A DNA stretch of 64,000 nucleotides from Aurantiochytrium sp. KH105 (Eukaryota; Sar; Bigyra; Thraustochytrida; Thraustochytriidae): contig BGKB01000002.1 of assembly GCA_003116975.1 (NCBI GenBank), positions 248,001 through 312,000 of the forward strand, written 5' to 3'. Positions within the stretch are counted from its first letter, which is position 1, and each line of letters starts with the position of its first letter. Both the position numbers and the translations under genes were made by a program. Positions 17,808-63,814 of the stretch are shown here, one piece after another. Below the pieces are notes generated by a model. It was not told where the DNA came from and made no database searches. It saw only the letters and a list, made by a program, of their open reading frames with translations.

Positions 17808-19226
17808 AGACTTTGCGTGCAGGGAGAGGAACCAACTCGTTTGCATCCACTCTTGATGCAGCAGGTGGTAGTGAAATGTTGCTTCCGATCTTGGAGCTGA
17901 TTTTGAGCATTCTTTTCACAAAAGACGATGATGCGCCGAACGATCGATTGTCCGGGGGCTGTCGATTGTGCAAGATTCAAAATTTGACAAAAGCATTGCT
18001 GCTGAGAGCGGTTGAGTGTCCTTGCGTGATCGCTCGGCCAATCGATAGCTTGATCGCTCGCTAGCTAGCTACTGCTGCGGATAAGCTGCTCTCCTTGTCG
18101 GTACAACGATAGCGGTTTCTCCGTGATCGCACTCATAAGTTCCTGTGGTAGTTGTAAAAGAGGGTGGGGCGATGAAATGCTTCCGATCATGGCGCTACGT
18201 TACCTTTTCAGCCTCCTTCAAGGTTAAACAATGACACCTCGGTTGATCTGTCGCTGCTGTCGCTGCTGTCGCCGCAACGAATAAAAGAGGATGTCGCGAC
18301 TCCCGGCCACAATGTCCGGACCCGGACCATTGTCCCTTGCAAGCGCATCTTCCTTCTCTGGAGGTAACGGCCGCGAATCTGGGGCCGCGGGCCGGCCACG
18401 CGTTCGTCGGGGCCTTGGGCAAATGGCGTTTACCTCGTTTCTCATCGAGTCGTTGTTGTCCGCATCCAGTGACACATGCCTGAAGAACTTCCTCTCTGCT
18501 TCGGAGATAGTCCAACGATGTTTGTTGTCCCGGCGTGGTGTGGGCGAAGCGGTGAGGACGACTTCGCGTGGCCCGCCTTGTTTGCATGCAAAACATCTTC
18601 GCAAATTCTTCTACCCCCTTTCTTCACTTTTGCGATGATAGTCTACGAGCATAAAAAGCGCGCGAGACTGTGCAGCATCTTTGTAACGACACGCGCAGAG
18701 GCCTGTGTAGCATCCTGAAAACGGCACGCAAGCTGCCAGCTCCAGTGTCAAAAAAGCCTTTGCCGCCGCAGGTTGTTGTTGCTGCTCTTTGCGGTCTGTA
18801 AAAAGACCCGCGTCGCGTCATATGTCGCTACTCGCTGGCTGTCGCTGGTTGTCGGCGGGACATATGAAACGGCTCAGAGAGTGAGAGACCTTTCGAGCGC
18901 CTTGGCCTCGCACGTCCCTTCTCTGCTCTTTTCCTCCGCACATTCCGGCACCACCATGATCGTGCCGAGACTTTGCGGCTCATGCAGCGGCGACGGCGGA
19001 TGAATCTCCCGCGGTCTGCATAGCCTTTCGCGGCCGTGCCGCCGCCGCCGAAGCTTCGTGAGGAGACGCCTTTATCCAGGCTGAGGCCGCGGTGGCAAGA
19101 GCAGCCAGGTCCTCTGCATTCAATCCAAGTCTGGCTGGCTGGCTGGCTGGCAGGCTGGTCACAGGTGGGCTGCGCCCAGCTTCGCGGGGTCGTCGTGGTC
19201 GATTGGGCCACCCTCGCTCGCCAGCC

Positions 19227-19227
<1 letters not shown>

Positions 19228-19315
<88 letters not shown>

Positions 19316-19330
19316 ACAAGCAAGCAAGCA
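19228..19330 (+). repeat. (AAGC)n microsatellite
   Basis: About 25 tandem copies of a tetranucleotide, almost perfect apart from one AAAC variant near 19313. It is followed by GCATGCATGC. The same unit recurs at 22275-22310 and 22420-22500 and in shorter form near 30288, 35194, 39352 and (inverted) 53244. Confidence 0.95.
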
Positions 19331-19339
19331 TGCATGCAT

Positions 19340-19440
19340 GCCAAGCCAAGACAAGTTAATCCCAACAAGCCAAGCAAAACAAGCCAAGCAAAACAAGCCA
19401 AGCAAAACAAGTCACACGAAACAAGCCAAGCAAAACAAGC
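19340..19440 (+). repeat. AAGCCAAGCAAAAC minisatellite
   Basis: Imperfect tandem copies of a ~15-bp unit built from AAGCC, AAGC and AAAAC, directly after the AAGC array. It looks like a derivative of that array. Confidence 0.8.
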
Positions 19441-20619
19441 CAGCTGCTGTGCAACACAAACGCGGTCAGTCGGTCGGTCGGTCGGTCGGTCGGTCGGTCG
19501 GTCGGCCGGCGCCTCGCTAACATTCGCGCGTCCGACCGACCGAACGTGCCGCTGCGCCTCCGGACATGTGTCGCCACGCCCTGCTCCTCCCTCCGCGACG
19601 ACCTGTCCGCAATCCATCCACACACGCACCCACGCACCCATCCATTGGCCATCGATCCATCGACAAGCCAGCCAGCCAGCCAGGCCTCGCCCGAGTCGCG
19701 CCGCGTCGCCGTCACGGCCGAGACGGTCGTCGTCATCTCCACCGGACACACCTAGAGAGCGTCAGACGCACACACACCGCGGCGCACGCACGTTACAAGC
19801 AAGCTGCGCCCGCCACTGGCGGCGGCACGCAGTGCACACCCTCTTTTTGCGCTTCGGCCCCACACTTGTCGTTCTGGCTGTTTCTGCCCGACTGGCTGGC
19901 GCAGTGCAACTACTTTTTGCTGATAACCAAAGCCAACTTGGCTCACGACTTCTCCATCGGCGGCTTACGATACTAGCAGCGAGTCTGCGTGCCGCGCTGG
20001 CTGCGGCGGCCAGCTGGAGTGGCTGCCTCGCCTTCCCTCTTTTCCTTTGCGTTCCGGTGCACCCTGCAGGGCCCGGCCGCGCCGCCGCACCGCGATCGCG
20101 TGCATTCGCGCGAGGAAGGACGTCGCCGCCTTTGTGCGTTTTCCATTTTCCCTGCCGGCGTTGGAGCGTGCATGCACGCACGCGCGCACTCCATTGGCCG
20201 TCCGTCCAGCGTGCGCATTGATTGCTGTTGCAGCAGCCATGGCAGCTGCCACTGCCGGCAGCTAGCTAGCTAGCTAGCTAGCTAGTATGCCAGTGCAGCT
20301 AGCACCGGTCCGGGTTTCCTCGGTGCGCGCTGGACCGGGTTTCCGGGTTTCCCCGGTCTGTGAAGCGGCGCTCCTTCCCGAGGCCGCTGGACCCCGGGGT
20401 CGCACCTAGCCACCCGCCTCGGCCCCTGCGCCCGACGGGCCGGTCTCTCCCTGCCGCCGCTAGGGGCGCTCGCCAAGCCCGCTGCCGCTGCGCGGCCCTT
20501 TCTGGCGAGCGCCCCGCGAGCTTGGCGCTGCCGCGATGGCGTGTAGTATGCCATCTTGCCGTCTCGGGTCTTGCGTGCGTGCTTGCTTGCTTGCTCTATC
20601 TAAAAAAGCAGGCGGAACA

Positions 20620-20761
20620 CAAGCCAAGCAAGCCAAGCAAGCCAAGCAAGCCAAGCAAGCCAAGCAAGCCAAGCAAGCCAAGCAAGCCAAGCAAGCCAAG
20701 CAAGCCAAGCAAGCCAAGCAAGCCAAGCAAGCCAAGCAAGCCAAGCAAGCCAAGCAAGCCA
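20620..20761 (+). repeat. (CAAGCCAAG)n 9-bp array
   Basis: About 16 near-perfect copies of a 9-bp unit, so every frame reads through it without stops (for example Lys-Pro-Ser repeats). A GCTTGCTTGCTTGCT run at about 20580-20595 lies just upstream in the opposite sense, so the pair could fold back. Confidence 0.95.
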
Positions 20762-22274
20762 AAAAAATCCGCGTCTCCCGGTCGGCAAGCGCGCGCACCC
20801 GCTGGCCCGCGCCTGCGCCTGCGCCTGCGCCTGCGTCGCCGCCCGCGCCTCCGCCTCCGCGCGGGGGTCGACGCTGTCGAGTCGAGGCGGCGCCTGCTGC
20901 ATCGCCGCCCATGCGTCGACCTTTCACACCCACCCCGCGGGCGGCGCGCGCGTCCACTCCGGGGCCTCCCCAGGCCGCGCCGCGCGGGCCACTCCGCGCG
21001 GGCCACTCCGCGCCGCGGCCCGCGCGGCCGGCCTGCCCGTGCGCGAGCGCGAGCATGTGCACGAGCGCGAACGAGCGCGAGCACGACGAGCACGAGCGCG
21101 AGCACGACGAGCGCGAGCGCGAGCACGAGCGCGAGCACGTGCACGAGCTCTGCTCTCTACCCTAGAAATCCCGGTCTCTCTCTCTCTATCTTTCTGCCTT
21201 CTCTTTTTTTCTTTTTTTCCCTCTTTCCCCCTGGACCCGCCCTCCGGCCTCCGCGCCCGCTCTCTCCCCTGCCGCACCGCTCGCTCTCCGCGAGCCCCCC
21301 GAGGCAGGATCGAGGCAGCGCGGGCGGAGCGAGAAACCGGCGGAGGGGCGGGCGGGCGCGCGGGCGTGCGGGCGGGGCCGAGCCCGGGTCGGCGGCGGCG
21401 GGCGGCGCGGGCGTCTTCTTCTCCGGACGCGGCCCGCGGCCCGACCGCGCCTGTCCCACGCGCCGCCGCAGCTGCGGGAGGGAGCCTCTTGCTCTCCCGC
21501 AGCGTGCGGGCTGTGGGGCTGACCTGCGAGCGGGGGGCGGAAAAAATAAGTTGAACGCGGCGGGCCAGCGCGCGCGGCTTCGTGTGAATGAACGAGCTCG
21601 AACCGGCTGGAGCTCGCTCGAGCTCGCGAGCTCGAACCGGCTCGGCTCGGCTCGGCTTGGCTTGGCTTGGCTGCGACCGGTCGGATTGGTTTGCGGAGCG
21701 AATTGTTCGTGTCTGCGAGCTCAGGTGGTGGATGGGTGTCTGTCCGGCCGGCCGTGTTCTTGTTAAGGTAATGAGATTGAGAGCCTATCTGGGCGCGCGC
21801 TCGCTCTCGCGCACGCACGGATAAGCACGCGCTGACCCTCGAACCCACGGTACGTTTCGCTCCAGCCTGCATGCCCGCACGCCTGCCTCGTCCAGCGAGC
21901 GAGCGAGCGAGGGGGCATCGGAGGCACTGCGCTGCTCTGCGTGGCGACACGCGGGTGAGGCGACTTTGATTCGTTGGCGAGCGGGCGAGGCGAAGAGGCG
22001 AAGCAGCGAGCGCGTGCTCCCTTCAAAGGGTCCTTTTGCGGCGTGTGCCATCTACGAGCGAGCAGCAGCCGCACTCTTCAGCCACCCACGATCGCAACCA
22101 GAATTGAACGAAGAAACAAGCCAGGAGGCTGACGAACGTAGTGACGCGGGCCGCGAGTAAACGTGCGTGCGCGCGTGCGTGCGTGCATTGGCCAACGGAC
22201 GAACAAGCGACCGGGCAATTCTCTGCACTCCTTCCCCCTCAGAAGGAAGAAAGGACGAAAGGAAGAAAGGGAGG

Positions 22275-22504: not shown

Positions 22505-25039
22505 ATGGTGATGACAATGAAGCAGGGGCTCTGCGTAGCCCTGCTGGCCATGGCGCTGGGCGTCACATACGCGCAAGAAGACGAGTATGGTGTCTGCGAG
22601 AACAACAGCTGCAATGATTACGTCAAGGACCGGGTCTGCAACGTGTCCACCGTCGCTGAGAACGCGTACATTCCGACGGTGACCACCTTCAAAATTGGCG
22701 TCATGCGCGACCTACGCGACACCAACGGCGCAGATTTTGCGGCAATGTGCGCCTTTCAGCACGCCCAAGACGATGGGATCCTCGCGAGCGTCACCAATCT
22801 CGACATGATCTGGCTCGACGAAGGCTCAGCGCAGGACGTACCCGGCGGCGTCGAGGCCGGCCTCTGTATGGCCGAATCGGGACTCAATCTTGCCATCGGC
22901 CCGTCTTCCAGCTCTGTCTCGCAGGGCGTTGCCATGGTCAGCAACGTCTACGAGCAAAACAACATCGCCACTACAGCAACCTCCCCGTCTCTCAGCAACG
23001 CAGACACCTACAAGTTCTTTTCTCGGGTCATCGCAGCGGACACATACCAGGGCTCCATGCTTGCGCGGTACGCGGTGACCATCAACGATTGGCGCAAAAT
23101 TGCCACCCTCTCAATCGCATCAAACACGTACTTTCAGGGCATCACCACCGTCTTTGAAGATGAAGCCACGGCCCTTGGCGCCGAAATCACCACGTACACC
23201 ATCCCGTCAGACTTCACCTCGCTTCAGATCGAAGAGGCTCTGCGCAAGATTCGCGACTCGGGCGTTCGTGTCATCATGGCGGCAATGAGGCCTATGCACG
23301 ACACCCTCGTTGTGGCCAACCAGACAAGTATGCTCGACGAAGGATGGGCCTGGCTGACCACCGAAACGACCATCTCCATCCTCTTTAGCAACATGCTGGG
23401 CCTCCCCGCCTCCAAGCTCGAAAATATGGACATTCTTCTTGACGGCGTCATTGGCCTTGTGCCCAAAATGGACGTCGAGGGCGAGGCCTACCAAAAGTGG
23501 ATGGCCTGCATTGATGAGCACTACAACGATACCACAACGGGTGGCATGTTCGACGACATGGGCGCCCAATCCACCGCCCGCGCCGGATCCTACGAAGAGG
23601 GTGTCGCTGCAGCAAAGATCATGTGGAACGGATACTACTACGACGCCATGCAGGTTGCCCTCCGTGCCCTCGATTCCGTCACGGCAGCTGAACGATCCGA
23701 CGCTGTCGTGGTGCGTGAGGCCATTCGCAGCACCGTGTACAACGGCACGACTGGTACGGTGGAGATGAACGCCGACGGTGATCGTATTGGAGTCGAGTAC
23801 GAGATTCTCAACATCTTCAACCGGACCACGAACGTAATTGGCACCATTGATGTCTCCACCGAGTCGATTATTCTGTCCCAAGATGCGCATTTCCCCGGTG
23901 ACACCCTGACAGTTCCAGCTGATTTCGTCATGAGCTGTGACCTTCAAGTTGACTACCACCAGACCGTCAGCGAATGTCGCGGCTCTACGCGCACAGTCAC
24001 CTACGAGCAAGATTCTGAAGAGTCTATTCGCTACTGCCCGGACATTGCGCCCTTTGAGGTAGACTGTGATCACGCTCTCTTTACGGGCCCCGGCATGCCT
24101 TTGGTCTGCGTTGGTTTGGCAATCGTACTCATTGCCACACTGGTGTTGCTCTTGCGCTGGAACCACAAGATCATTCGGCTTTCGCAGCGTCAGTTCCTGC
24201 TCATCATGATGATCGGCGCCTTTGTGTCTCTCGTCGGCCCGCTTGTCGCAATCGGCGAGCTCAACGACTTGCGATGCGCCGCGCTGCCGTGCTTCACCAC
24301 GCTCGGCTACGTTCTCCTCTTTGGTCCTCTCTTTGTCAAGACCTGGCGCGTCAACGTGCTTGTGCACAACACGCGCATGCGCATTCTGAAAATCTCCAAC
24401 CAAATGCTCTATCGACGCCTTTTTGTTCTCGTGCTTCTCACTGCAATTATGCTGGCTGTCATGCTCATCATTGACCCGCCGCGCAGACAAGCCAGCGCGC
24501 AGCCGGTGCAAGCCAACGGTGTGACACACCTGATTGACTTCGAGACCTGCGTTGTGGAATCGAGGCTCATGGGCAATCTTCTCATTTCTCTTCTCGGACT
24601 CATGACCCTGTACGGCTGCTTTGTCTCGTTCCAGATCCGCAACGTGAGCTCTGAGCTCAGTGAGTCGCGCTGGATTTTCTTGTCCGTCTACAATGGTGCT
24701 CTGCTCTCCACGGTCACTCTTGCTGTCGTCCTCGGTCTCGACCTCTCTTACGCCCAGTTGCATCTCTTTGCAACGCTCGGTATTGTGCTCACCTGCGTCG
24801 TCACGGTTCTTCTCATCATGGTGCCCAAGCTGGTCAACATTTATAAGAACGTGGCCATTTTTTCTTCCGGATCGTCGGCTGGAACAAAGCGCATCACAGT
24901 TCCGTCTGCGCCCCGCGGCATTCAATACGTCGACAAGAAGGAGCCGTCTCAGCTTGCAGACACCGCCGAGGGCTCTGCCGCCGAGACGATCGACGAGAGC
25001 ATCCGCCCTCCGCCGTCTCGCACTTCCTTCTCTGTGTAA
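22505..25039 (+). CDS. Class C G-protein-coupled receptor, GABA-B-like
   Basis: 844 aa, single exon. A signal peptide (MVMTMKQGLCVALLAMALG, cut near YAQ) leads to a type 1 periplasmic-binding-protein/ANF-receptor ectodomain (about 45-460; FKIGVMRDLR, IGPSSSSVSQGVA, TTATSPSLS). A short Cys-containing linker leads into a class C 7TM bundle (about 530-790). The bundle starts PLVCVGLAIVLIATLVLLLR, has the GABA-B-like loop WRVNVLVHN between helices and ends in TM7 near VTVLLIMVPK. The long cysteine-rich domain of mGluRs is absent, which fits the GABA-B group and the Dictyostelium Grl proteins. The ligand is unknown; amino-acid-like ligands are usual for the fold. The start is the first ATG, with A at -3. 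A possible AATAAA signal lies near 25153. Confidence 0.95.
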   Translation: MVMTMKQGLCVALLAMALGVTYAQEDEYGVCENNSCNDYVKDRVCNVSTVAENAYIPTVTTFKIGVMRDLRDTNGADFAAMCAFQHAQDDGILASVTNLDMIWLDEGSAQDVPGGVEAGLCMAESGLNLAIGPSSSSVSQGVAMVSNVYEQNNIATTATSPSLSNADTYKFFSRVIAADTYQGSMLARYAVTINDWRKIATLSIASNTYFQGITTVFEDEATALGAEITTYTIPSDFTSLQIEEALRKIRDSGVRVIMAAMRPMHDTLVVANQTSMLDEGWAWLTTETTISILFSNMLGLPASKLENMDILLDGVIGLVPKMDVEGEAYQKWMACIDEHYNDTTTGGMFDDMGAQSTARAGSYEEGVAAAKIMWNGYYYDAMQVALRALDSVTAAERSDAVVVREAIRSTVYNGTTGTVEMNADGDRIGVEYEILNIFNRTTNVIGTIDVSTESIILSQDAHFPGDTLTVPADFVMSCDLQVDYHQTVSECRGSTRTVTYEQDSEESIRYCPDIAPFEVDCDHALFTGPGMPLVCVGLAIVLIATLVLLLRWNHKIIRLSQRQFLLIMMIGAFVSLVGPLVAIGELNDLRCAALPCFTTLGYVLLFGPLFVKTWRVNVLVHNTRMRILKISNQMLYRRLFVLVLLTAIMLAVMLIIDPPRRQASAQPVQANGVTHLIDFETCVVESRLMGNLLISLLGLMTLYGCFVSFQIRNVSSELSESRWIFLSVYNGALLSTVTLAVVLGLDLSYAQLHLFATLGIVLTCVVTVLLIMVPKLVNIYKNVAIFSSGSSAGTKRITVPSAPRGIQYVDKKEPSQLADTAEGSAAETIDESIRPPPSRTSFSV

Positions 25040-28871: not shown

Positions 28872-30242
28872 TTACACAAGCTGGAGAATATCAGACTTTT
28901 GTGCATGCGACTCTGTAAGAGGAGTTTCTAACTCGCCAACGCCTGCCACAGACGCACTGGGGTCGTCTTCCGCAGGTCGAAATTGGAACACCTCAAAGAG
29001 AGTGGCTGCGAGCGTGGCTCCCAGGATCGGGCCAGCAATGAAGATCCACATCGACGGAACCCAGATGTTCTGTTTACATGACAATAACATTCGTCAGCTG
29101 CGTCCCTTCTCACAAGATCGACCCAACCCGCCTGTCGTCAAACTTACGTGACCCATGAACAAGTGCACAGCCACAGGCGCGAGCGTGCGTGCGGGGTTGG
29201 TGCCGCAGCTTGTCTGTGCTTCGAGCAGAATGTGTGCGATGAAAGTCGTGGCCGCTACCGGTAGAGGTGCCGTTTCGGGTTTTCCTCGAAGAACCAGGTC
29301 GGGGATGACCACCGTCGCGAGCACCGTGACGCAAATCATGCAGGTCGCGGTCAGCTCAAGAAGGAAGCCATTCTGAGGGCTCATGAGCGCGCTCAGGTAG
29401 TTTTCGCCGAGGTCGAGCGTCCAAATTCCAAAAATCATATCCAGTTCGGTATCGTGCACCGTGACGCTCTCGCGGGAGGCCAAGAGAAGGATAGATCCGA
29501 AAAAGGCGCCGATAAACTGTGCCACGGCAAGCATGGCGCCAAGCAGCTTTGGGCATTCGCCCGACATGGTCAATGAGAGCGTGATTGCAGGACTGCGCGA
29601 CGCAAATGTATCGTCATTGACGAAGGGTTAGTATTCAATATTATCGTGATGAGATAAACGACACTCGAGCGTGTGTTTATGGAAGAGAAGAAGAACTTAC
29701 TTTCCGTAGGCTCGTGACGAATTGCCCACAATGAGCACGCCAAGCGCGAATGCTGCAGCGGGCGGGAATGTGCGTCGAGCCTATGATTATCGAGATAAAA
29801 TGAGCAGGAATGGAAAATTTAAACCGTCAGACCCTTGGATGTTCAGAAATGTGCGATGTGGGCTCCCGCCAAGACCTTGGAAAGGACAACGTACCACTGT
29901 GGCCATAAGACTCTCCGGGTTGTAATAGCTAGCACCATGATCAATGATCATGTCTCCGGAGGCCCTGAGCGCGTCGTTCACCAATGCTACGGCGCCTGTT
30001 CCGGTCCAGGTCATGAGAGCGGAAAACATGCATTCTGTTGCTGCCTCTCTCCAAAACTTAAAGACCTTCTTCTCTCGCGAGCTCGTGCAATCTTCCGAAA
30101 TCTCTCGCTCTGCCGCGGCGTCACAGCCCTTTTCCTCAAGACGGGTGTAGACCATTTCTTGGTCCATGCTTTCGAGACGTTGAGCTTCTGCGTTGCCAGC
30201 GGTTTGCTGCGTTTGGTGATTTGAGATTTGCTGCGTCTGCAT
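28872..30242 (-). CDS. Aquaporin (MIP family), four exons, copy 1
   Basis: Exons on the minus strand: 30242-29895, 29780-29701, 29592-29148 and 29069-28872; introns of 114, 108 and 78 nt with GTACGT or GTAAGT donors and AG acceptors. The spliced product is ~356 aa. A hydrophilic N-terminus (about 60 aa) precedes TM1 (ECMFSALMTWTGTGAVALV). The first NPA box is created across the exon 2/3 junction (AA|T), reading AYG-NPAITL. The second box is CGTNPARTLAP. The residues before NPA1 are AYG instead of the usual SGGHI. Water or small-solute transport is expected; the selectivity filter was not fully resolved. The other aquaporin gene lies 1.6 kb away on the same strand with matching introns. The start could also be the Met 25 codons later. 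Confidence 0.88.
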
Positions 30243-31889: not shown

Positions 31890-33007
31890 TTAGACCTTGG
31901 CCATCATGAGAGGCCGGCCACTCGTGTCTTGCTGGACAGCAGTCTTTGGCACTGCGGCAGGCTCGTTGGGGTGGAGGAGCGTCTTGTGCAGTCCCGCCGC
32001 CGCAAACGACGCCATGAATGGACCGACAAAGTAAATCCAGTACGTGGAAGCCCAGACGTTCTGAAAATCGATGCAGAATCGTGAGTTAGCAAAGGCTTTC
32101 GCTCGTTAGCACTAAGAAAGAAGAAACTTACATTGCCAGCCATGGAATTCACAAGCGCAGGGCCGAACGTGCGGGCTGGGTTGATGCCGCACCCCGTTAG
32201 AGGAATGAGAACAACGTGCGACAGAAAGACTGCAAAGCCAATCGCAATTGGGGCATTTGCTGGCTTGCCCTGAGCCAAGCTGTCAGGGTGAAGAACTGTG
32301 CTGAGAACGGTAATGCAAAGCAAGAAGGTACCCAAGAACTCAAGCACAAAGCCATTGCCTGCGTTGAGAGTGGCATTGAGTCCGTTTGCACCAAGGTCAA
32401 AAGGTGGGTTGCCCACAAGAGACTCCACTTCTTCCTGTCGGCCATATGACATGTTGCTCGTGCATGCCCAGACAAGCAAGGATCCAAAGACAGCACCAAG
32501 CAACTGCGCGGCAATGTAGGCACCGCAGCGCAAAGGCGAGCATTCGCCCACAAGCGTAAGGCACAGTGTGACAGCCGGGCTATTGCTGCGGTCAGTCATT
32601 TCTTCTCCTTCGGCGATAACAATGTGTGCGTGTATGTGTGTGAGAGAGAGCGCGCGAGAGAGAGAGATCGACTTACTTGATGTGCCCTCCGCTCACATGG
32701 CCAAAGGCATAGACGAGGACGAGGATTCCAATGCCGAAGGCAAAGGCGATGGGGAGAATGCGTGCAACCTGCGAAAAGAAATCAATGAGAGAGATATTTT
32801 CTCGATTGTGAGAGGTTGAATGAGGGCAATAACTCATCGCCAATAATAATCACGTACCGTCTTTTGATTCGGTGCGTCGCTAAGCGCCAGAAATTCTCCT
32901 GTCGAAACCGCTGACCCGGTACCAATCCAGATAAAGAGCGTCATCGCAAGGAGCTCGACAAGAACATCCTTGACGAAGCGCGCGTCGACCACATCCTGTT
33001 TTGCCAT
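31890..33007 (-). CDS. Aquaporin (MIP family), four exons, copy 2
   Basis: Exons on the minus strand: 33007-32858, 32768-32677, 32579-32132 and 32060-31890; introns of 89, 97 and 71 nt, all GT-AG. Spliced length 286 aa, the usual size for the family. TM1 includes ELLAMTLFIWIGTGSAV. NPA1 is formed across the exon 2/3 junction as SGGHI-NPAVTL and NPA2 is CGINPARTFGP; both boxes are canonical. Without splicing the region falsely reads SPA at the first box. The C-terminus after the last helix is short. Intron phases (0, 2, 0) and positions match copy 1, so the two are ancient duplicates. Water or small-solute channel activity is expected. Confidence 0.93.
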
Positions 33008-55635: not shown

Positions 55636-58600
55636 ATGGCGGAGACGGCGCGAGCCCGCGGCGGCATCGGCGGCGGGCCTGACGATGCTGGGTCGCTGGA
55701 GCACATGATGGAGACGTGCGTGCAGACGCTCAAGAACCTGTCGGCGTACGACCTCGCGGCGAGGCTGGCGGTGAACGACCGCAAGGTGCAGGAGGCCGTC
55801 GATATGATCGACAAGATCGCGGAGGCCATGGAGAGGCTGGAGCAGGACTATCTCGAGGAGAAGAATCGGTCTCCGGTGGAGATTCAACGCGAGTACGCGC
55901 CCATCGGGCAGGTCGTTCGCATCCTTATGGACGCCGACGAGTGGACCTCGATTCTGACGGCCTGTCTTTCCTGGGAGAGTGCTAGCATGCGCCCCAATCT
56001 GACGATCAAGCTCGCAGCCATGCGAATGCTCGTGGCCTTTCTTGCCGCGACGGACAATGACGGCTTTTACTACGAGGTCTTTTTGCTTGAGCGCATTGTG
56101 CCATACCAAGAGCTTCTCGCCTACGCGTACGGCGATGCCTATCTGTCTACGGTGAGCAGCGCTGAGATCTCTGCTGCAAGCACGAGCTCGTCGGCGGCGA
56201 CACCAAATGCGCGTCGGAGGCGACGTGCGCCCCGAGCACCCGCGCGCGTTGAGGATGAGATGGCCAAGCAGGTGATTCGCTGGTGGAAAGAGCGGCCATC
56301 AGAGGCTCGCATTTTACGGCTGCGCGCGACCGCGCTCCTTCGCGCCTGGGTTGAGGATGACCGTGTTGCTGCCGACTACATTGTTGAGCCTCATGGTGAT
56401 CGTGGAATGTTGTCACCTTTTCCGCGGGTGTTGCTGACTCGACTGCGGACAGAGCTTATTGATGCCTACGAGCACGGCACGCGTCGTCTTGCGGGGCATC
56501 GCATCGCGCGACGCGGGTGCGCCGAGATTAAAAAGTTTCACAACTTCAACGCGGAGATTCGCCACGTGTGCCGGCTATTTGTTGTGCTCTCTGATGCAAA
56601 TGCGGCCGTCATTCGACCAGTCTTGCAAGAGGACGGTGTGGGTATGCTGTTGCGTCTACTCAAGATTGACCGCGAGGACGCAGCGCTCCAATGGGATGTC
56701 GTGGATCTATTGACGGCTCTCATGGTCTTTCGCAAGTTTGCCAACGAGTTTATTGATGCAGGCGGTGTGTCACTCCTTTTCAATCTTGCGAAAGGCACGT
56801 CCGTTCCGGGATTCATGATTCCAGTCGTCACGAATTGCTTCACCAATCTTGCAGCGACTGGTATGGGTAAGATCTGCCAGACGCAAAAGCCCCTCGTGGA
56901 GCCGCTGAACGCTTTCATGCTTGAGCAAGTGAGCAATCCGCAAGCCCGCGAAGGCGCGCTTGGGTACTTTCGCGATGCACTCAAGTGTCCTGTCAATCTT
57001 CGCATCTTTGACAACCTCAAGGGCGTGTATGAGGTCTTGAACGCACTATCGGATGTATACGATCAAAATTTCGTTGATGGTGCCTTTGATATTGCCAAGC
57101 AGGAGGGACTCATTGCCGCCTCCCTGGGCGCGCTGGAGTCTTACTTTCGCATGCATGTTGCGATTGCGGCTCACATCGCTCGTTTCGACCTTGTTTCGCA
57201 CCGCAACAAGCAACAAGGCGCAAGTAGCATTAGCAACAAAGCGAACAGCCACGTTCACCACCACCACCACCACCATCATCACCAGGGTCGGCCACGAAGC
57301 AGTAGCATCGGTTCACGGAGCAGCATGGGAAGCGCAGGGAGCCACGGTTTTCATCGCGCGCGCGAGCTCCCGGAGGACAAGCCCGTTGAAATTGACGACG
57401 TTGCACATGCCAACGACATGTCTTTCTTGCAGTCCAACATGGACGCCGTGATGCGTCTTCTTGCGCGATCGAGCTGGCCCCCTGTGGAAACTCTGCTTCG
57501 CTACGAGCTCCCCGTGCGTTCTACGACCACACGTTCGCGGGAAAACTCGAACGAGGGCATCTCCGCGGCAGCGCGAGCACGACGCGGCAGCACAAGCGCA
57601 GAGCAGGACAGGGGGGCTGAGACCGCGCCGGCCGAGAACCAAGACGGTGACAATGAGGAGCCTCTTTCAAAGCAAGGGCAGGCGCATGACAATTCCCATG
57701 CCTCGGACGACGCGATGCATAGTCAGACGCTTGCCTCCTATTCAAACGCGACGGCCACGACCGGGGGCGCGGGAGCTGGGCTCCCAGCCAATCGCAAGCA
57801 TGCCCTTTTACTACTGCTTGATGTGGTGCGCTCTGGCCTGGTTACCTCGATCAAGGCGCTGCAGATCCTTCGCATCATTACTTTGGTCCCATCGACGTAC
57901 AAAATGGTCTGCGAGGCAAGTTTGCCCAATCAACATCCACTGACGATTCCACTCAACAGCACGGAGCTCCAGACACTGGAGGACGAGAGCGTGCTAGGCA
58001 TCTCTGTCTTGCTCGAGGCGATGGCGACCTTTGAGGCGCGTGAAGCCGAGGTCCTGGTTGCCGCGCTTGAGGTCTTGTGCAATTGCTGCACGCCCGCTTA
58101 CGGTGACGACCGCGCGCAACGGCCCGTGCGCCGGCTGGCACGTGACAACAATGCCCTCATGACTCTCTTGGCGCTTCTTCGCTACGATGAAACGCCCAAA
58201 CTGGCAGATCAGATCCGATACCTTGCGTGTCTCGTGCTACAGGGCTTGGCCAAGGATCACCATGTCGCGCAAGTTTTAGAGACGCTGAATCTGTCGCAGG
58301 CGCTCACCAAGATCGCGCGCACCGAGCCGGTCCTTGTGGAGAACAAGAAAATCCACAAACGGCTGAAGCGCGAGGCCCTCAAGTTGATTGAGCACATTTC
58401 TGGAACAGATATCGGCGACGTCGCCGATGCGACAAACAAGCGTCTTTTGCGCAATTCGATCGTTGACCGCACGCAAATCTCCTTTGATTCGCGCGAGCTT
58501 CTGGGGCTGATTGAAGGTCACCTTCGCGACCACGGTTACGGGCGCGTGGCCGATGTCCTGGAAAGCGAGCTGCATTCAAGGTACAAGGAAAATTCTGCCA

Positions 58601-60573
58601 AGGGATCCTCGCCTCGCTTTAGCTGGCCAGCCAAATATCTTGGTGTCCCCAAAGCGAAGAAGGAGAAGGAATCATCGAAGGGCGCCGTACTGCTTACGCC
58701 TCCGCGACGTAGCAGCAAGTCCAAGGAGCGCGGAGACTCGGATGCGCAGGATGAGAAGGAGAGCCTCGGACTCGAAGGCACCGCTGGCCACGATGGCGAT
58801 TCCTCGAAGAAAGACGGCAAGCTTGTTGTAGGCAAGAAACGTCGATTTGGCTTTGTGGGCCAGGGAAGCATGCAGAAACGCCGCAAGGTGAGCAGCAAGG
58901 TTGCAGCCACTCCAGTCAAGACCGAGTCGTGCATTGCGCGCCAGCAAGTGAGCAAGGTGATGCATAGCAACTCGGGCAATAGCACCGCACTGGAACGCAT
59001 CGTCCAAGACTATCTTCGCGAGCAGCATCGCAAGTGCCTCGAGCCCGTGACGATTATTCCTCCCATGTCTCTGCACGGGGATCGACACGAGTGTACAGCG
59101 GACAAGAAGCATGCCACGGGTGCGCCGATCAACGTCACGCAGCGATTATTCCAGCGTGAGACTACCGGGTCGCCGGGTAACTCGGGCTGTTTGGCCCAGA
59201 ATGCACGCTTTGTGCATGGACGTTCCAAGTGGGTGAAAACCTTTCGCAACATCACCCGCAACGAAGACACTGATCCTGGCGCGGACATGAACAACCCGGA
59301 GTTCAGTCAAATGTACACGTGCGTTTCGTTCTTGCAGCCTCTGCGCGCAGGGTATGAGGATCTCTTGCTGGGCACGAGCGGTGGCGACCTAGTGATGCGG
59401 AATACGCACACGTGTCAGACCTATGCAAAGTGGGCGGTGCACGAGTCTCCACTTACGAGCGTCAATGTGGTCGGAGATCGAGTCCTCACGCACGCGGAGT
59501 CAGGCAACGTTGCGCTGTCCAAATTTCCCGCCTCGGTCGTCGAAGCCTATGCGGACGACGAGGATCGCGTGTATGCGTATGCGCAGCGTAATCGCAACGG
59601 CCCTGACGATGAGCTTGTGCAGCTTTGGCAGCACGAAAATGTCATGAACGTGGAGATGGATCAGGCTTGCGTTCGCATGGTCGCCACGACATCGATTGAG
59701 CGTGGACGGCATGAACAGGCTGCAATCGTGTACGACCTGCAGACGGGGCGATTCGTGTCACGCCTCTCACACGTCAAGCTTTCAAGCCGCTATCAGTGGC
59801 ATCGCGCATGCTTTGCGCCGCACGATAGTAATTTGGTTCTGCACGATGGTTTGCTGTGGGACGTACGAGCACATCGGCACATTCACAAGTTCGACAAATT
59901 TACCGAGTATGGCCGAGCAACCTTCCGACCCGACGGGACACATGTCGCGATCGACACTGCTGTCTGGGATATGCGCACGTTCAAGCTCTTTGTCATGTGC
60001 GAAGCCTTTGCAGGTGCTGTCGTCAAATTCGACAGCACGAGCTCGGTGGCATACAGCTACTACCCGCCCCTGTTCGAGGAGAAGCAAATGTCGGTATTTA
60101 CGGTGACCGACGCCTCGGACTACTCTAACATTACCACACAGGACTTGCAGCCTCATCGTATCGTGGACCTTGCGCTTGACACCACGGCTCGCAAGCTTGC
60201 TGTTCTCACGGAGCGCTCGCTCAATCACGAAGAGGACCGAAGCAAGATTTGCACGTGTCGACTCTACGAGGCTGGCCGAACGCAAATTGCGGATGACGAT
60301 GAGTACAAGGACGATGACGAGCTTTTGGACGATGAGGATGATGAGGACGATGAGAACGACATGGATTCTGACGACGACATCGACGACGACGATGACGACG
60401 ACGATGAGGATGAGGACGAGCATGAGCATGAGCATGACGACGACGATATGGCCAACCATCCTGATGATATGGATGATTTTGACGACGACGACGACGACAT
60501 AGATGGTTCGTTTGTTCGCGATATGATTGAACCGTTTGGCTCACTTGAAGCGATGATGTACGGTCACCTCTGA
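55636..60573 (+). CDS. DCAF1: DCAF1 (VprBP), substrate receptor of CRL4 ubiquitin ligase
   Basis: 1645 aa, single exon. The start MAETARARGG has GCGATGG context; upstream codons begin with TTG. An armadillo-like helical region covers about 40-900, with a His run (about 540-550) and Ser/Gly-rich linker inserted. A LisH motif (LIEGHLRDHGYGRVADVL) is at about 955. DCAF1-specific LERIVQDYLREQH and APINVTQRL lead to a WD40 beta-propeller. Two DWD boxes for DDB1 docking are intact: WDVR at 1408-1411 and WDMR at 1444-1447, with DGLLWDVRAHRHIHKFDKF. The last ~90 residues are almost all Asp/Glu, as in animal and plant DCAF1. It recruits substrates to CUL4-DDB1. Confidence 0.96.
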   Translation: MAETARARGGIGGGPDDAGSLEHMMETCVQTLKNLSAYDLAARLAVNDRKVQEAVDMIDKIAEAMERLEQDYLEEKNRSPVEIQREYAPIGQVVRILMDADEWTSILTACLSWESASMRPNLTIKLAAMRMLVAFLAATDNDGFYYEVFLLERIVPYQELLAYAYGDAYLSTVSSAEISAASTSSSAATPNARRRRRAPRAPARVEDEMAKQVIRWWKERPSEARILRLRATALLRAWVEDDRVAADYIVEPHGDRGMLSPFPRVLLTRLRTELIDAYEHGTRRLAGHRIARRGCAEIKKFHNFNAEIRHVCRLFVVLSDANAAVIRPVLQEDGVGMLLRLLKIDREDAALQWDVVDLLTALMVFRKFANEFIDAGGVSLLFNLAKGTSVPGFMIPVVTNCFTNLAATGMGKICQTQKPLVEPLNAFMLEQVSNPQAREGALGYFRDALKCPVNLRIFDNLKGVYEVLNALSDVYDQNFVDGAFDIAKQEGLIAASLGALESYFRMHVAIAAHIARFDLVSHRNKQQGASSISNKANSHVHHHHHHHHHQGRPRSSSIGSRSSMGSAGSHGFHRARELPEDKPVEIDDVAHANDMSFLQSNMDAVMRLLARSSWPPVETLLRYELPVRSTTTRSRENSNEGISAAARARRGSTSAEQDRGAETAPAENQDGDNEEPLSKQGQAHDNSHASDDAMHSQTLASYSNATATTGGAGAGLPANRKHALLLLLDVVRSGLVTSIKALQILRIITLVPSTYKMVCEASLPNQHPLTIPLNSTELQTLEDESVLGISVLLEAMATFEAREAEVLVAALEVLCNCCTPAYGDDRAQRPVRRLARDNNALMTLLALLRYDETPKLADQIRYLACLVLQGLAKDHHVAQVLETLNLSQALTKIARTEPVLVENKKIHKRLKREALKLIEHISGTDIGDVADATNKRLLRNSIVDRTQISFDSRELLGLIEGHLRDHGYGRVADVLESELHSRYKENSAKGSSPRFSWPAKYLGVPKAKKEKESSKGAVLLTPPRRSSKSKERGDSDAQDEKESLGLEGTAGHDGDSSKKDGKLVVGKKRRFGFVGQGSMQKRRKVSSKVAATPVKTESCIARQQVSKVMHSNSGNSTALERIVQDYLREQHRKCLEPVTIIPPMSLHGDRHECTADKKHATGAPINVTQRLFQRETTGSPGNSGCLAQNARFVHGRSKWVKTFRNITRNEDTDPGADMNNPEFSQMYTCVSFLQPLRAGYEDLLLGTSGGDLVMRNTHTCQTYAKWAVHESPLTSVNVVGDRVLTHAESGNVALSKFPASVVEAYADDEDRVYAYAQRNRNGPDDELVQLWQHENVMNVEMDQACVRMVATTSIERGRHEQAAIVYDLQTGRFVSRLSHVKLSSRYQWHRACFAPHDSNLVLHDGLLWDVRAHRHIHKFDKFTEYGRATFRPDGTHVAIDTAVWDMRTFKLFVMCEAFAGAVVKFDSTSSVAYSYYPPLFEEKQMSVFTVTDASDYSNITTQDLQPHRIVDLALDTTARKLAVLTERSLNHEEDRSKICTCRLYEAGRTQIADDDEYKDDDELLDDEDDEDDENDMDSDDDIDDDDDDDDEDEDEHEHEHDDDDMANHPDDMDDFDDDDDDIDGSFVRDMIEPFGSLEAMMYGHL

Positions 60574-61288
60574 AGTGAGTGTTTCCGTCCAGGCCGTGAT
60601 CCGGTTCAGCATTTGTGGACAGTGTGCCATCCTCTGCGTGGGTGATAGATCACTTTGTGATTCTAGGGCAGATGAAAGAAACCAATCTACGTTTTTATAA
60701 CAATTTTTATAACAAAAGAAAGAACAACAGGTTCGTGTCGATCCACATGATCACTTTTTTGATCGAATTCATCAAGCAAATTGGCTTTGTGATTTGTCTG
60801 TTTTGTGGGCCAGATTTTGCTTGTCGATTATTTTTCTGGCTATCACGCGCTTCCAGAGTCTTGGTGCTAGTTACTGTAAATCTCGCGTCGGAGAGAGGAA
60901 GTTTGCCCCACATGTTGATTTCATTGGGAATAGGTAAATGCACTGACGGTGAGAGCAAGGTAATTTCGGGCTCGTCGATTATTTTTCAGGCTATCACGCG
61001 CTTCTGGAGTCTTGGTGCTAGTTACTGTAAATCTCGCGTCGGAGAGAGGAAGTTTGCCCCACATGTTGATTTCATTGGGAATAGGTAAATGCAATGACGG
61101 TGAGGGCAAGGTAATTTCGGGCTCTTTTGCCATAATGACGGCGAGAGAGCGAGTGAGCTCGCTTCAGTGGTCAGAGACAAGTCCGAAAATGACATTCATT
61201 TTATAAAAGATTACTTTTTACGAACGTCGCTCTCGTTAAAAAAAAAAGAAAAGAAAGAAAGTGTGTGCGGGAGGATCTGTGTTTGGCT
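60574..61288. other. Convergent spacer with tandem duplication
   Basis: 715 bp between converging genes, AT-richer than elsewhere. About 300 bp is a two-copy tandem repeat (listed separately). No gene was supported. Confidence 0.5.
60824..61124. repeat. Tandem duplication, two copies of a 151-bp unit
   Basis: Copy 1 is 60824-60974 and copy 2 is 60975-61124. Each begins TCGATTATTTTTC and ends near GTAATTTCGGGCTC. I count only about half a dozen substitutions, so the duplication is recent. Neither copy has a recognisable gene or element. Confidence 0.93.
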
Positions 61289-63814
61289 TTAAACAACGCG
61301 GATGGCAGCCGACGCGCTCGCGCCCGAACCCTGCGAGAGATTGTCATCGTCGATGGGGCGACCGGTCTGAGAAACACGCTTGGCGTTACGCACAGAAGAG
61401 CGGACCTTGCACATCATGACAAGCACAATGACGAGGATGATCATATCAATGACAGCAAAGATGAGAGCCGCCACAGCAATGGCGATGGCGGTGTCGACTT
61501 CATGGTGAATGTGGGAAGAGCTGTCATCATCATCATGGTCATCATCGTCCTCGATCTCCGCAACTTGAGCAGAGAGTTCAGACGTGGTTGCGGTGAGGGC
61601 CTCATACTTGGTCTGAAGGTCCTCAATCGCCTGCTGAGAGACGACCTCGCGCTTCTCACTGATGACGTAGGGCCCGGCACCGGTGATAACCTGAGTGTCG
61701 GTCTCAAAGATGAATTCCTCGACGTCGTCGGGCATCTCGAGGTTGGCGAGGCCATTCTCGCAGAGCTCGCGAATCGAGTCGGTAAGGGGCGAGAAGCTGT
61801 AGTCTTGCATGAGGGTCTGACCGAGATCCGCGTCAAGAACATAGGTGAGGAAGGCCTTGAGCAGAGCGGCCGAAGAGCCCATGGTGCTGAGGTCTTCACG
61901 CACGTAAATGTACGAGACAAGAACGATGGGCCAGGCGCCTTCACCATCTGTGTCAATGAGGTTGACGCCGGAAAAGTCGGAGGTAACGTTCGAGGGCCAG
62001 CCGTTGAAGGCGTCAGCGGCAGCGGCAATGCCGTCCGCGGAGGCCTGGACGAGGTCCCCGTTTTTGTTGTACATGTGAATCTCCGTTAGGGAGTCCGGGT
62101 AGCCATGGCTGACGGAGAGGTATCCAATCGAGTACTCGGTGTCCTCGAGGTGGTCCTGAATGCCGCCAGAGCCGGCATCGGACTCGCAGGTGCCGGTGAG
62201 ATCACAGGGCCAGGTAGAGAGCTTGGAGCCAACAATATCCGCGATCCACTCGCTTTCGCACTGACTGTTCATGTAGGTGGTGAAGCCCGAGGTGCTGCTC
62301 GAGCCCGAGGTGCGGTGGACAGCCTTGATGTCCTCATCGATGTCACGGATCCACTCGTTGTCCTCGTGCTCGTCGGCAAGTTCACTCCAAGTGGAGTAGC
62401 CGCCGTTGTAGATCTTGGCGAGGCCACAGGCGGAAATGACGAGCTTGCGGTCCTCTACGCTGCGGAGCTCCGGGATGTTGACGTAAACGGAGATGGCGCC
62501 AAAGGCAAAGGGGAACTGCGCAATGTTGTGGTGCTCAGTGATGGTCTCGTAGTCCTCGTTATCAAAGGGGATATCACCAGAGCCGAACTGCGTGTAGGGG
62601 AGGTAGGCCGTGGAGGAGTCGCCGAGCATCTCGGCCTGACCGTCGCCACTGCCAATGGCACGGTAAGACATCTTGATGGGGATGCGGGTGCCCGAGTGGA
62701 AGAGGTCAAAGACGTGCCAGAAAAAAGAGGACGGGTTCGTCGTACCACTGCCGTGAAGGGTAATGGTGGACGAGGAGTAGAGATCCGAGACCTCGGTAAA
62801 GGCAATGATGGTACCAAGGAGCGTGACTTCGGCATCAGCGTTACTCTCGACATCCTTTTGGTCGCCGACCACGTGAGCGCCACCGAAGAGATAGACGGTG
62901 TCACCAATGGTGGCGGCGGGGAAGCGGAAGCGCTGCTCGTCGAGCTCACCGGCGTGACGCCACTCGTCCTGGTGCAGGACCTCGATCGTCTCGAGCTCGG
63001 CGCCCGTGGTCTGGCCGCCAAAGACGTAGAGGCGGTCGTTGAGGACAGCGGCAGCCTTGTCACCGCGAGGCTTGGTGAGCGAGGCGCTCTCGAGGGTCCA
63101 CGTGTTCTCGTTGGGGTCAAAGCGCTCCAGACTGGCAATGTGCTCGTACGATGCGCCGTAGCCGCCAATGACGTACGCCTCGCCGTCAAAGACGACGGAG
63201 CCAGCATCGGCGCGGGCCTCGTTGAGTTCGGCGCCGGTCACGTTGATGGCAGTCTCGGTGATGGCGATGGTGCTGCTGACCGGAGTCCAGTCAGCGCCCC
63301 AGCCGCCGGTGTAGTAGACGGTGTCGCCGAGACCGAAGGCGGTGCCGTCGGCGATGCCGGAGTCAAGCTGGAGGGCCGAGGGGGACTCCCAGGTGTTGGT
63401 CGAAGGATCGTAGATGTCGACCTCGACGGGGTAGTCGCTGTTGTCCGTCGATACGCCGCCGACGACGACGACCTTGCCGTTGGACAGGGCAGCGGCGCCA
63501 TGGCGGAAGCGCGGGCGGGGTGCGTCCGCCACCTCAACGAGGATCTCATCCGAGGTGAGCGCGTTGGGGTCAAATAGGTAGGCCTTGGCGGAAACGTCGG
63601 TGCATTCGCCGTCGACCTTGACCTGCGCAAAGCAGCCTCCGAAGAGGAAGACCTTGGTGCCGTCCTCGACGAGGGTGGCGGTGAAGTCAGACATTTCTTG
63701 GGGAAGCGTCGTGCTCAGGGACTCTACGGTGTGCTGCATGGGCTCCACGAAAGCCGCCGCGGCGACCTGTGCGAGCGCGCCGGCCGCGACGGCCAGGACT
63801 GCGCCCTTGGTCAT
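61289..63814 (-). CDS. Kelch beta-propeller fused to PstS-like phosphate-binding domain, membrane-anchored
   Basis: 841 aa, single exon. A signal peptide (MTKGAVLAVAAGALAQVAAA) is followed by a kelch propeller (about 45-315: VFLFGG, VVVVGGVS, AYVIGGYG, RLYVFGGQ, VYLFGGAH). Residues about 345-700 match bacterial PstS, the phosphate-binding protein of the Pst ABC transporter. All three phosphate-contact loops have counterparts: HGSGTTNPSSFFW (about 354-366), YRAIGSGDG (384-392) and HRTSGSSSTSGF (about 520-531). QFPFAFGAISVYVN and KIYNGGYSTWSEL are also typical. A coiled-coil (about 715-750), Asp-rich patch and one TM helix (about 772-800) lead to a ~40-residue cytosolic tail. An outward-facing phosphate or anion sensor/receptor is my inference. 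No ABC partner lies nearby. Confidence 0.93.
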   Translation of the reverse strand: MTKGAVLAVAAGALAQVAAAAFVEPMQHTVESLSTTLPQEMSDFTATLVEDGTKVFLFGGCFAQVKVDGECTDVSAKAYLFDPNALTSDEILVEVADAPRPRFRHGAAALSNGKVVVVGGVSTDNSDYPVEVDIYDPSTNTWESPSALQLDSGIADGTAFGLGDTVYYTGGWGADWTPVSSTIAITETAINVTGAELNEARADAGSVVFDGEAYVIGGYGASYEHIASLERFDPNENTWTLESASLTKPRGDKAAAVLNDRLYVFGGQTTGAELETIEVLHQDEWRHAGELDEQRFRFPAATIGDTVYLFGGAHVVGDQKDVESNADAEVTLLGTIIAFTEVSDLYSSSTITLHGSGTTNPSSFFWHVFDLFHSGTRIPIKMSYRAIGSGDGQAEMLGDSSTAYLPYTQFGSGDIPFDNEDYETITEHHNIAQFPFAFGAISVYVNIPELRSVEDRKLVISACGLAKIYNGGYSTWSELADEHEDNEWIRDIDEDIKAVHRTSGSSSTSGFTTYMNSQCESEWIADIVGSKLSTWPCDLTGTCESDAGSGGIQDHLEDTEYSIGYLSVSHGYPDSLTEIHMYNKNGDLVQASADGIAAAADAFNGWPSNVTSDFSGVNLIDTDGEGAWPIVLVSYIYVREDLSTMGSSAALLKAFLTYVLDADLGQTLMQDYSFSPLTDSIRELCENGLANLEMPDDVEEFIFETDTQVITGAGPYVISEKREVVSQQAIEDLQTKYEALTATTSELSAQVAEIEDDDDHDDDDSSSHIHHEVDTAIAIAVAALIFAVIDMIILVIVLVMMCKVRSSVRNAKRVSQTGRPIDDDNLSQGSGASASAAIRVV

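Follow-up and report, generated by a model that had tools for sequence, protein, structure and literature searches.

A kelch–PstS membrane protein and PstS-bearing class C receptors as candidate phosphate sensors in Aurantiochytrium sp. KH105

The kelch–PstS gene and its second copy

The 64-kb stretch of DNA analyzed here (hereafter the window) carried on its minus strand a frame of 841 codons without internal stop (61289-63814, ORF translation), predicted to encode a membrane protein with a kelch region followed by a PstS-like domain. Its features are as follows.

61289..63814, minus strand: kelch–PstS type I membrane protein, 841 aa in a single frame, stop codon at 61289-61291
63752..63814, minus strand: signal-peptide-like N terminus (residues 1-21), on the basis of hydropathy
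62855..63751, minus strand: kelch region (residues 22-320), six GG-motif repeats, by Pfam Kelch_1 and Foldseek
61745..62770, minus strand: PstS-like domain (residues 349-690), by PBP_like_2, TIGR00975, phmmer and Foldseek
61505..61714, minus strand: stalk (residues 701-770), a long predicted helix and then an acidic/His-rich stretch
61412..61504, minus strand: single transmembrane helix (residues about 771-801), hydropathy maximum 3.24
61292..61411, minus strand: C-terminal tail (residues 802-841), 40 aa, no Pfam match

The signal peptide, kelch repeats, PstS region, single transmembrane helix and short tail of the original prediction were all seen by Pfam and hydropathy. The signal-peptide-like segment covered residues 4-24 by hydropathy, and the sole further strongly hydrophobic segment of the protein lay at about 771-809. 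GG kelch motifs were located at residues 59, 119, 170, 217, 266 and 311 (n=6), with Pfam matches to Kelch_1 (2.2e-28, 97.9 bits vs a gathering score of 20.1) and to KLHDC2/KLHL20-type repeats (1.8e-25) within about the first 320 residues. In the predicted model, DSSP assigned a stalk helix at 722-759 and a helix at 766-816 spanning the transmembrane segment. Pfam detected no recognized effector domain in the 40-aa tail and no 7tm_3 domain in the protein, which has one transmembrane helix instead by hydropathy. The letters DING, of the N-terminal DINGGG motif of DING proteins, were absent from the protein in a motif search.

Several other features were observed around the gene. A tandem duplication (60819-61124, 151-bp unit, 2.0 copies, 96%) followed downstream of its stop codon, and the adjoining frame (55636-60573, plus strand, 1,645 aa) matched no Pfam model up to 0.001 and had an extended acidic region towards its C terminus. 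A pair of aquaporin-family (MIP) gene pieces lay near each other (29094-29567 and 31904-32599, minus strand), and long low-complexity frames with LAC and AKQ repeats at 18828-21165 looked like repeat-driven artefacts. Placement of the host among the labyrinthulomycetes is plausible: a PfaA-like PUFA synthase match in the genome scored 930 bits, under the model cut-off of 1010. Weaker matches, all below the cut-off, turned up in 11 of the 14 control genomes, and LABY-Y, a primer site of labyrinthulomycete 18S, had no match in the genome.

The kelch–PstS gene was located on a 657-kb contig (C2) of a 76-Mb genome assembled in 367 contigs. Contig C125 harbored a collinear, 98% identical copy with an intact frame, along with a near-identical copy of the neighboring gene, and the class C GPCR found about 37 kb from the gene on C2 was matched on C125 by a near-identical one, at a distance of about 38.5 kb. 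As the gene, its neighbor and the GPCR were all collinear, C2 and C125 were read as haplotypes. Searched against its own genome, the whole kelch protein matched only itself and the C125 copy. The acidic stretch of the stalk differed in length between the two copies. The single intronless frame claimed at the outset was confirmed, with 841 aa free of stops and the frame intact in the second copy.

The protein would be an artefact if it stemmed from contaminating bacterial DNA, from an assembly error that created the fusion or from two genes being read as one, which is considered very improbable; these candidates were ruled out by the copies, the dN/dS and a gap in methionines. The identical frame occurred in two collinear copies, on a 657-kb contig bearing eukaryotic-type genes (e.g., the class C GPCR and RRP5-type S1 repeats), and no close relative was confirmed when prokaryote contigs were scanned for peptide patterns. 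No methionine lay between residues 41 and 382 of the frame, which leaves the PstS part without its own start codon upstream of its first conserved strand, so that it cannot be a separate gene of the ordinary kind. By Nei-Gojobori count between the two copies, the whole gene displayed a dN/dS of 0.113 (dS 0.071, dN 0.008).

The PstS-like domain and its phosphate site

Sequence profiles placed the second half of the fusion with PstS. PBP_like_2 (PF12849, Pfam) matched residues 349-661 (6e-24, 85.7 bits vs a gathering score of 27), and the best NCBIfam model was PstS TIGR00975 (residues 353-689, E 2.4e-38), with a score of 132 bits that lay below the equivalog cut-off of 205 and left the protein outside the equivalog. 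Up to E 1, the only other substrate-binding models retrieved from NCBIfam were two more PstS models. Among the best 60 of 126 phmmer matches to PDB sequences, kelch chains and PstS chains were obtained, one kind per half, and the domain was 22-29% identical to 49 bacterial PstS rows.

The full protein was aligned with these 49 rows as input to AlphaFold2, which gave a model with a mean pLDDT of 64.8, mostly 75-94 in the PstS part (with dips to 55-65) and lower in the kelch part. PstS structures were the top Foldseek matches (best 8ods, E 1e-20, TMt 0.85). Ranks 22-27 were taken by DING and HPBP structures (E 3.3e-13 to 3.5e-12), and kelch propellers, matched by a part of the model of low confidence, appeared from rank 29 (E 3.3e-11). 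Folded alone without an alignment, the kelch part reached a mean pLDDT of 39.7 and was uninformative. Structure prediction and a profile search had been proposed as checks on the PstS domain, and Pfam, NCBIfam and Foldseek all gave PstS, the fold result not being independent of the sequence result as the PstS rows in the alignment ease reaching a PstS fold. On sequence profiles and the predicted model, the domain is related to PstS. Among viral structures (BFVD), Pandoravirus proteins were ranks 1-4 for the window model (E 7.4e-17 to 2.3e-15); two of these top matches were named kinases, three of the four top alignments had a large rmsd, and these viral proteins may be PBP-type receptor kinases.

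The phosphate site was compared with that of E. coli PstS, using the eight contact positions of the E. coli structure. The counterparts, in an alignment in which the Nonomuraea row stops short of positions 10 and 11, are listed below.

62735..62740, minus strand: T359 N360, counterparts of T10 (kept) and F11 (changed to N)
62648..62650, minus strand: S389, counterpart of S38, kept, invariant over 50 rows
62573..62575, minus strand: D414, counterpart of D56, kept, invariant over 50 rows
62312..62314, minus strand: R501, counterpart of R135, kept, invariant over 50 rows
62294..62308, minus strand: S503-S507, with D137 changed to S, S139 kept (S505), G140 changed to S and T141 changed to S

Five of the eight contact positions matched those of E. 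coli PstS, and F11, G140 and T141 were changed. All three phosphate loops had been predicted to have counterparts, which holds by position, but the third loop is altered, reading R-T-S-G-S-S-S in the kelch protein vs R-x-D-G-S-G-T in PstS, and F11 is replaced by N. The second-shell residue D137 is also replaced by S, a change that need not abolish binding since E. coli PstS D137N, D137G and D137T have been solved with phosphate bound (entry titles of 1quk, 1qui and 1qul). Judged from these residues, phosphate or a closely related oxyanion is the likely ligand, with one oxyanion-gripping loop altered, and the changes of G140 and T141 to S and of F11 to N could shift specificity or affinity.

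The dN/dS ratio varied along the gene. Between the two copies, dN/dS was 0.04 for the PstS part (residues 331-700; 24.5 synonymous and 3.5 non-synonymous changes), 0.24 for the kelch part (14 and 11) and 0.15 from stalk to tail (2 and 1). Although the changes are few, constraint looks stronger in the PstS half than in the kelch half, which suggests that a ligand function has been retained.

Kelch propellers are common protein-binding modules, and the protein might instead serve in adhesion or in a matrix, its kelch part binding glycans or surface proteins and its PstS-like fold binding another anion or having a structural or protein-binding role. The changes at three of the eight contact positions and at D137 fit such a role, as do the long tree branch and unusual residue make-up of the domain described below. 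The constraint on the PstS part (0.04 vs 0.24 in the kelch part, again on few changes) and the conservation of S38, D56, R135 and S139 argue against it, and we regard it as unlikely.

PstS-bearing receptors, phosphate transport and origin

The Aurantiochytrium genome encoded further PstS-like domains on predicted class C GPCRs. PF12849 was found at 10 places. The two kelch genes account for two of these, and the remaining eight, on contigs C51/C123, C140/C30, C59/C214 and C31/C14, are interpreted as four loci, each present in two haplotypes. The frames of all eight (1,137-1,326 codons) were also recovered, with equal frame lengths, in the 7tm_3 search. Six of them were scanned at full protein length (1,125-1,154 aa, counted from the initial Met), and each displayed PBP_like_2 and 7tm_3 over the cut-offs. 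In a phmmer search with one of these proteins, the 7TM part had GABA-B receptor subunit 2 as its top match, and the N-terminal part matched PstS. By hydropathy, the C30, C59 and C31 proteins each had seven hydrophobic segments beyond residue 780, and the C51 protein had seven once two overlapping ones were merged.

These receptors harbored a second, diverged PBP-like region, located after the PstS domain and ahead of the 7TM core. In the two proteins of the C140/C30 pair, out of the six scanned, Pfam recognized this region as a further PBP_like_2 stretch, and a profile comparison matched the first region to the second with 96.1% probability (E 3.3e-9). The site alignment took in five of the eight GPCR places, and all five displayed a complete phosphate site, with nine positions as in E. 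coli. A quick 7tm_3 tree covered 30 of the 69 places, and the seven rows with a PstS domain that it included were separated from all others by a single branch (SH-aLRT 97), a grouping that fits one fusion followed by duplication, at a point where the program warns of long branches meeting. The dN/dS between pairs ranged from 0.10 to 0.25, that of C59/C214 being computed on the shared frame only (the C214 frame extends further).

The domain of the kelch protein and those of the GPCRs were 21-23% identical and homologous by hhalign (95.1%, E 3e-8), and the whole kelch protein used as query recovered none of the eight GPCR places in its own genome. Given this identity and the missed places, a pathway shared by the kelch protein and the GPCRs is a guess. 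Ten other GPCR pieces, most of them clipped at locus ends, displayed an ANF_receptor ectodomain (three), a Cache-type one (two, one over the cut-off) or no recognized ectodomain (five, two of them with a PT disordered-repeat match). A class C GPCR with an ANF_receptor ectodomain was also present in the window (22505-25039, plus strand; 7tm_3 1.8e-35), with a near-identical collinear copy on C125.

The lack of a transporter near the gene, noted in the original prediction, extended to the whole genome for the Pst-type permease BPD_transp_1 (PF00528), which had no match in the Aurantiochytrium genome vs matches in all 14 control genomes. PHO4 was likewise not found in this genome, with matches in 10 of the 14 controls. 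Na_Pi_cotrans (SLC34-like) gave 20 matches, two per frame, and G-alpha was over the cut-off at 27 of 46 places. Phosphate uptake would thus be possible without PstS, and the receptors would have G proteins available for coupling.

Sensing and scavenging of phosphate had both been put forward for the protein, and the eight PstS-7TM places, all outside the window, make sensing the likelier and scavenging the less likely of the two; their occurrence in the same genome favors sensing over uptake as well. As a scavenger or reservoir, the anchored domain would concentrate phosphate at the surface and pass it to a Na/Pi cotransporter without signaling. The mostly kept PstS-like site and the SLC34-like transporters are compatible with this, and a secreted bacterial DING protein (Psp) has been proposed as a scavenger of extracellular phosphate (PMC2225411). 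One binding site per membrane anchor would nevertheless make a poor reservoir, and the remaining PstS-like domains recovered from this genome ride on 7TM receptors, so that scavenging is held to be rather improbable.

The origin of the domain was approached with a PstS tree of 39 rows (21 from a second prokaryote scan, 11 from phage and plasmid collections and seven from the Aurantiochytrium genome). This second prokaryote scan used a cyanophage and enterobacterial-type PstS query, and the best 80 of its 506 confirmed matches also supplied the 49 rows of the fold alignment. Long branches led both to the kelch pair (4.9) and to the GPCR rows (3.4), and constraining them to one clade was neither rejected nor supported (p-AU 0.37). 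Support for the sister row of the kelch domain was weak (54/90), long branches meet in this tree, and the kelch rows stand apart in residue composition. Peptide-pattern scans with the window domain against prokaryotes (13 pattern matches) and with the eukaryotic alignment against viruses (63 pattern matches) gave no confirmed match; such scans need short exact peptides and therefore miss relatives at 25% identity. With tblastn, 24 phage-collection records (two of them Salmonella contigs) and 36 plasmid records were matched at 21.5-29.6% identity, many, not all, annotated as PstS.

With the other PstS rows bacterial or phage, and the Aurantiochytrium genome alone representing eukaryotes, transfer from bacteria is the natural reading. 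The proposed gene transfer followed by fusion is plausible on these sequences, but the domain sits on a long branch among bacterial and phage PstS and the donor is left unplaced by the tree. The PstS in the record of Campylobacter phage A11a (marked UNVERIFIED) is almost the same as the Salmonella protein, a likeness suggesting that bacterial DNA has contaminated that record.

Proposed function and comparison with known systems

The kelch–PstS protein is proposed to be a phosphate-binding, phosphate-sensing co-receptor of the cell surface rather than part of a transporter, a reading that we give an even chance. The PstS-like Venus flytrap would lie outside the cell, bind inorganic phosphate or a closely related oxyanion and presumably close on it, while the kelch propeller and the helical stalk would mediate protein contacts. 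As the 40-aa tail carries no known signaling domain, the signal would be relayed through a partner, most simply a PstS-7TM receptor, which could couple to the G-alpha proteins of the cell. In a broader form, which we rate as somewhat less likely than not, the genome would encode a dedicated extracellular phosphate-sensing system in which PstS-ectodomain class C GPCRs signal and the kelch–PstS protein acts as co-receptor.

Bacterial PstS (TIGR00975; 2abh, 8ods) resembled the window domain in its whole-domain fold and most phosphate contacts. The window protein differs in being preceded by kelch repeats, membrane-anchored, eukaryotic, below the equivalog cut-off and altered in the third loop; bacterial PstS moreover works with the PstC/PstA permeases, and PF00528 had no match in this genome. 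DING proteins and HPBP (2q9t, 4f1v, 2v3q) are also PstS-fold phosphate binders, but their fold match was weaker and the window protein lacks the DING motif. DING proteins have been found in animal and plant tissue, and eukaryotic DING genes were reported to be absent from eukaryotic genome and EST databases at the date of that paper (PMC2225411). Venus kinase receptors (PMC4026697) likewise place a Venus flytrap ectodomain on a single transmembrane helix; they carry a tyrosine kinase, whereas the window protein ends in a 40-aa tail without Pfam match.

The same Pfam extracellular domain occurs on eukaryotic membrane proteins of Plasmodiophora brassicae and on SPPG_06488, whose tag we take to denote Spizellomyces punctatus, a chytrid. 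In a 2016 paper, the PBP_like_2-7tm_3 proteins of P. brassicae were called transporters and their fusion was reported from no other eukaryotic genome (PMC4815078), and a 2012 listing for fungi gives one PBP_like_2-bearing Glutamate-family receptor, SPPG_06488 (PMC3251606). PBP-like N termini have also been described for class C GPCRs of diatoms (PMC3727952). The P. brassicae-type architecture was present at eight places in the Aurantiochytrium genome, and the PstS-7TM receptors reported here extend this known architecture. The window protein differs from these proteins by its one transmembrane helix and its kelch domain. No kelch–PstS fusion was found in the literature searched, mostly outside subscription papers, and the kelch–PstS single-transmembrane protein appears to be a new architecture.

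The sensing of extracellular phosphate by eukaryotic cells is poorly understood. The occurrence of related domains on a kelch protein and on GPCRs suggests a bacterial phosphate-uptake module turned sensor, and PstS-like domains on receptor bodies would make extracellular phosphate sensing testable. The PstS type would be a second kind of bacterial binding protein used as a class C ectodomain in this organism, besides the ANF-receptor type, and it is further suggested that the "transporters" of P. brassicae may be receptors. If true, the proposed sensing would be a eukaryotic counterpart, different in mechanism, of bacterial PstS-linked phosphate sensing.
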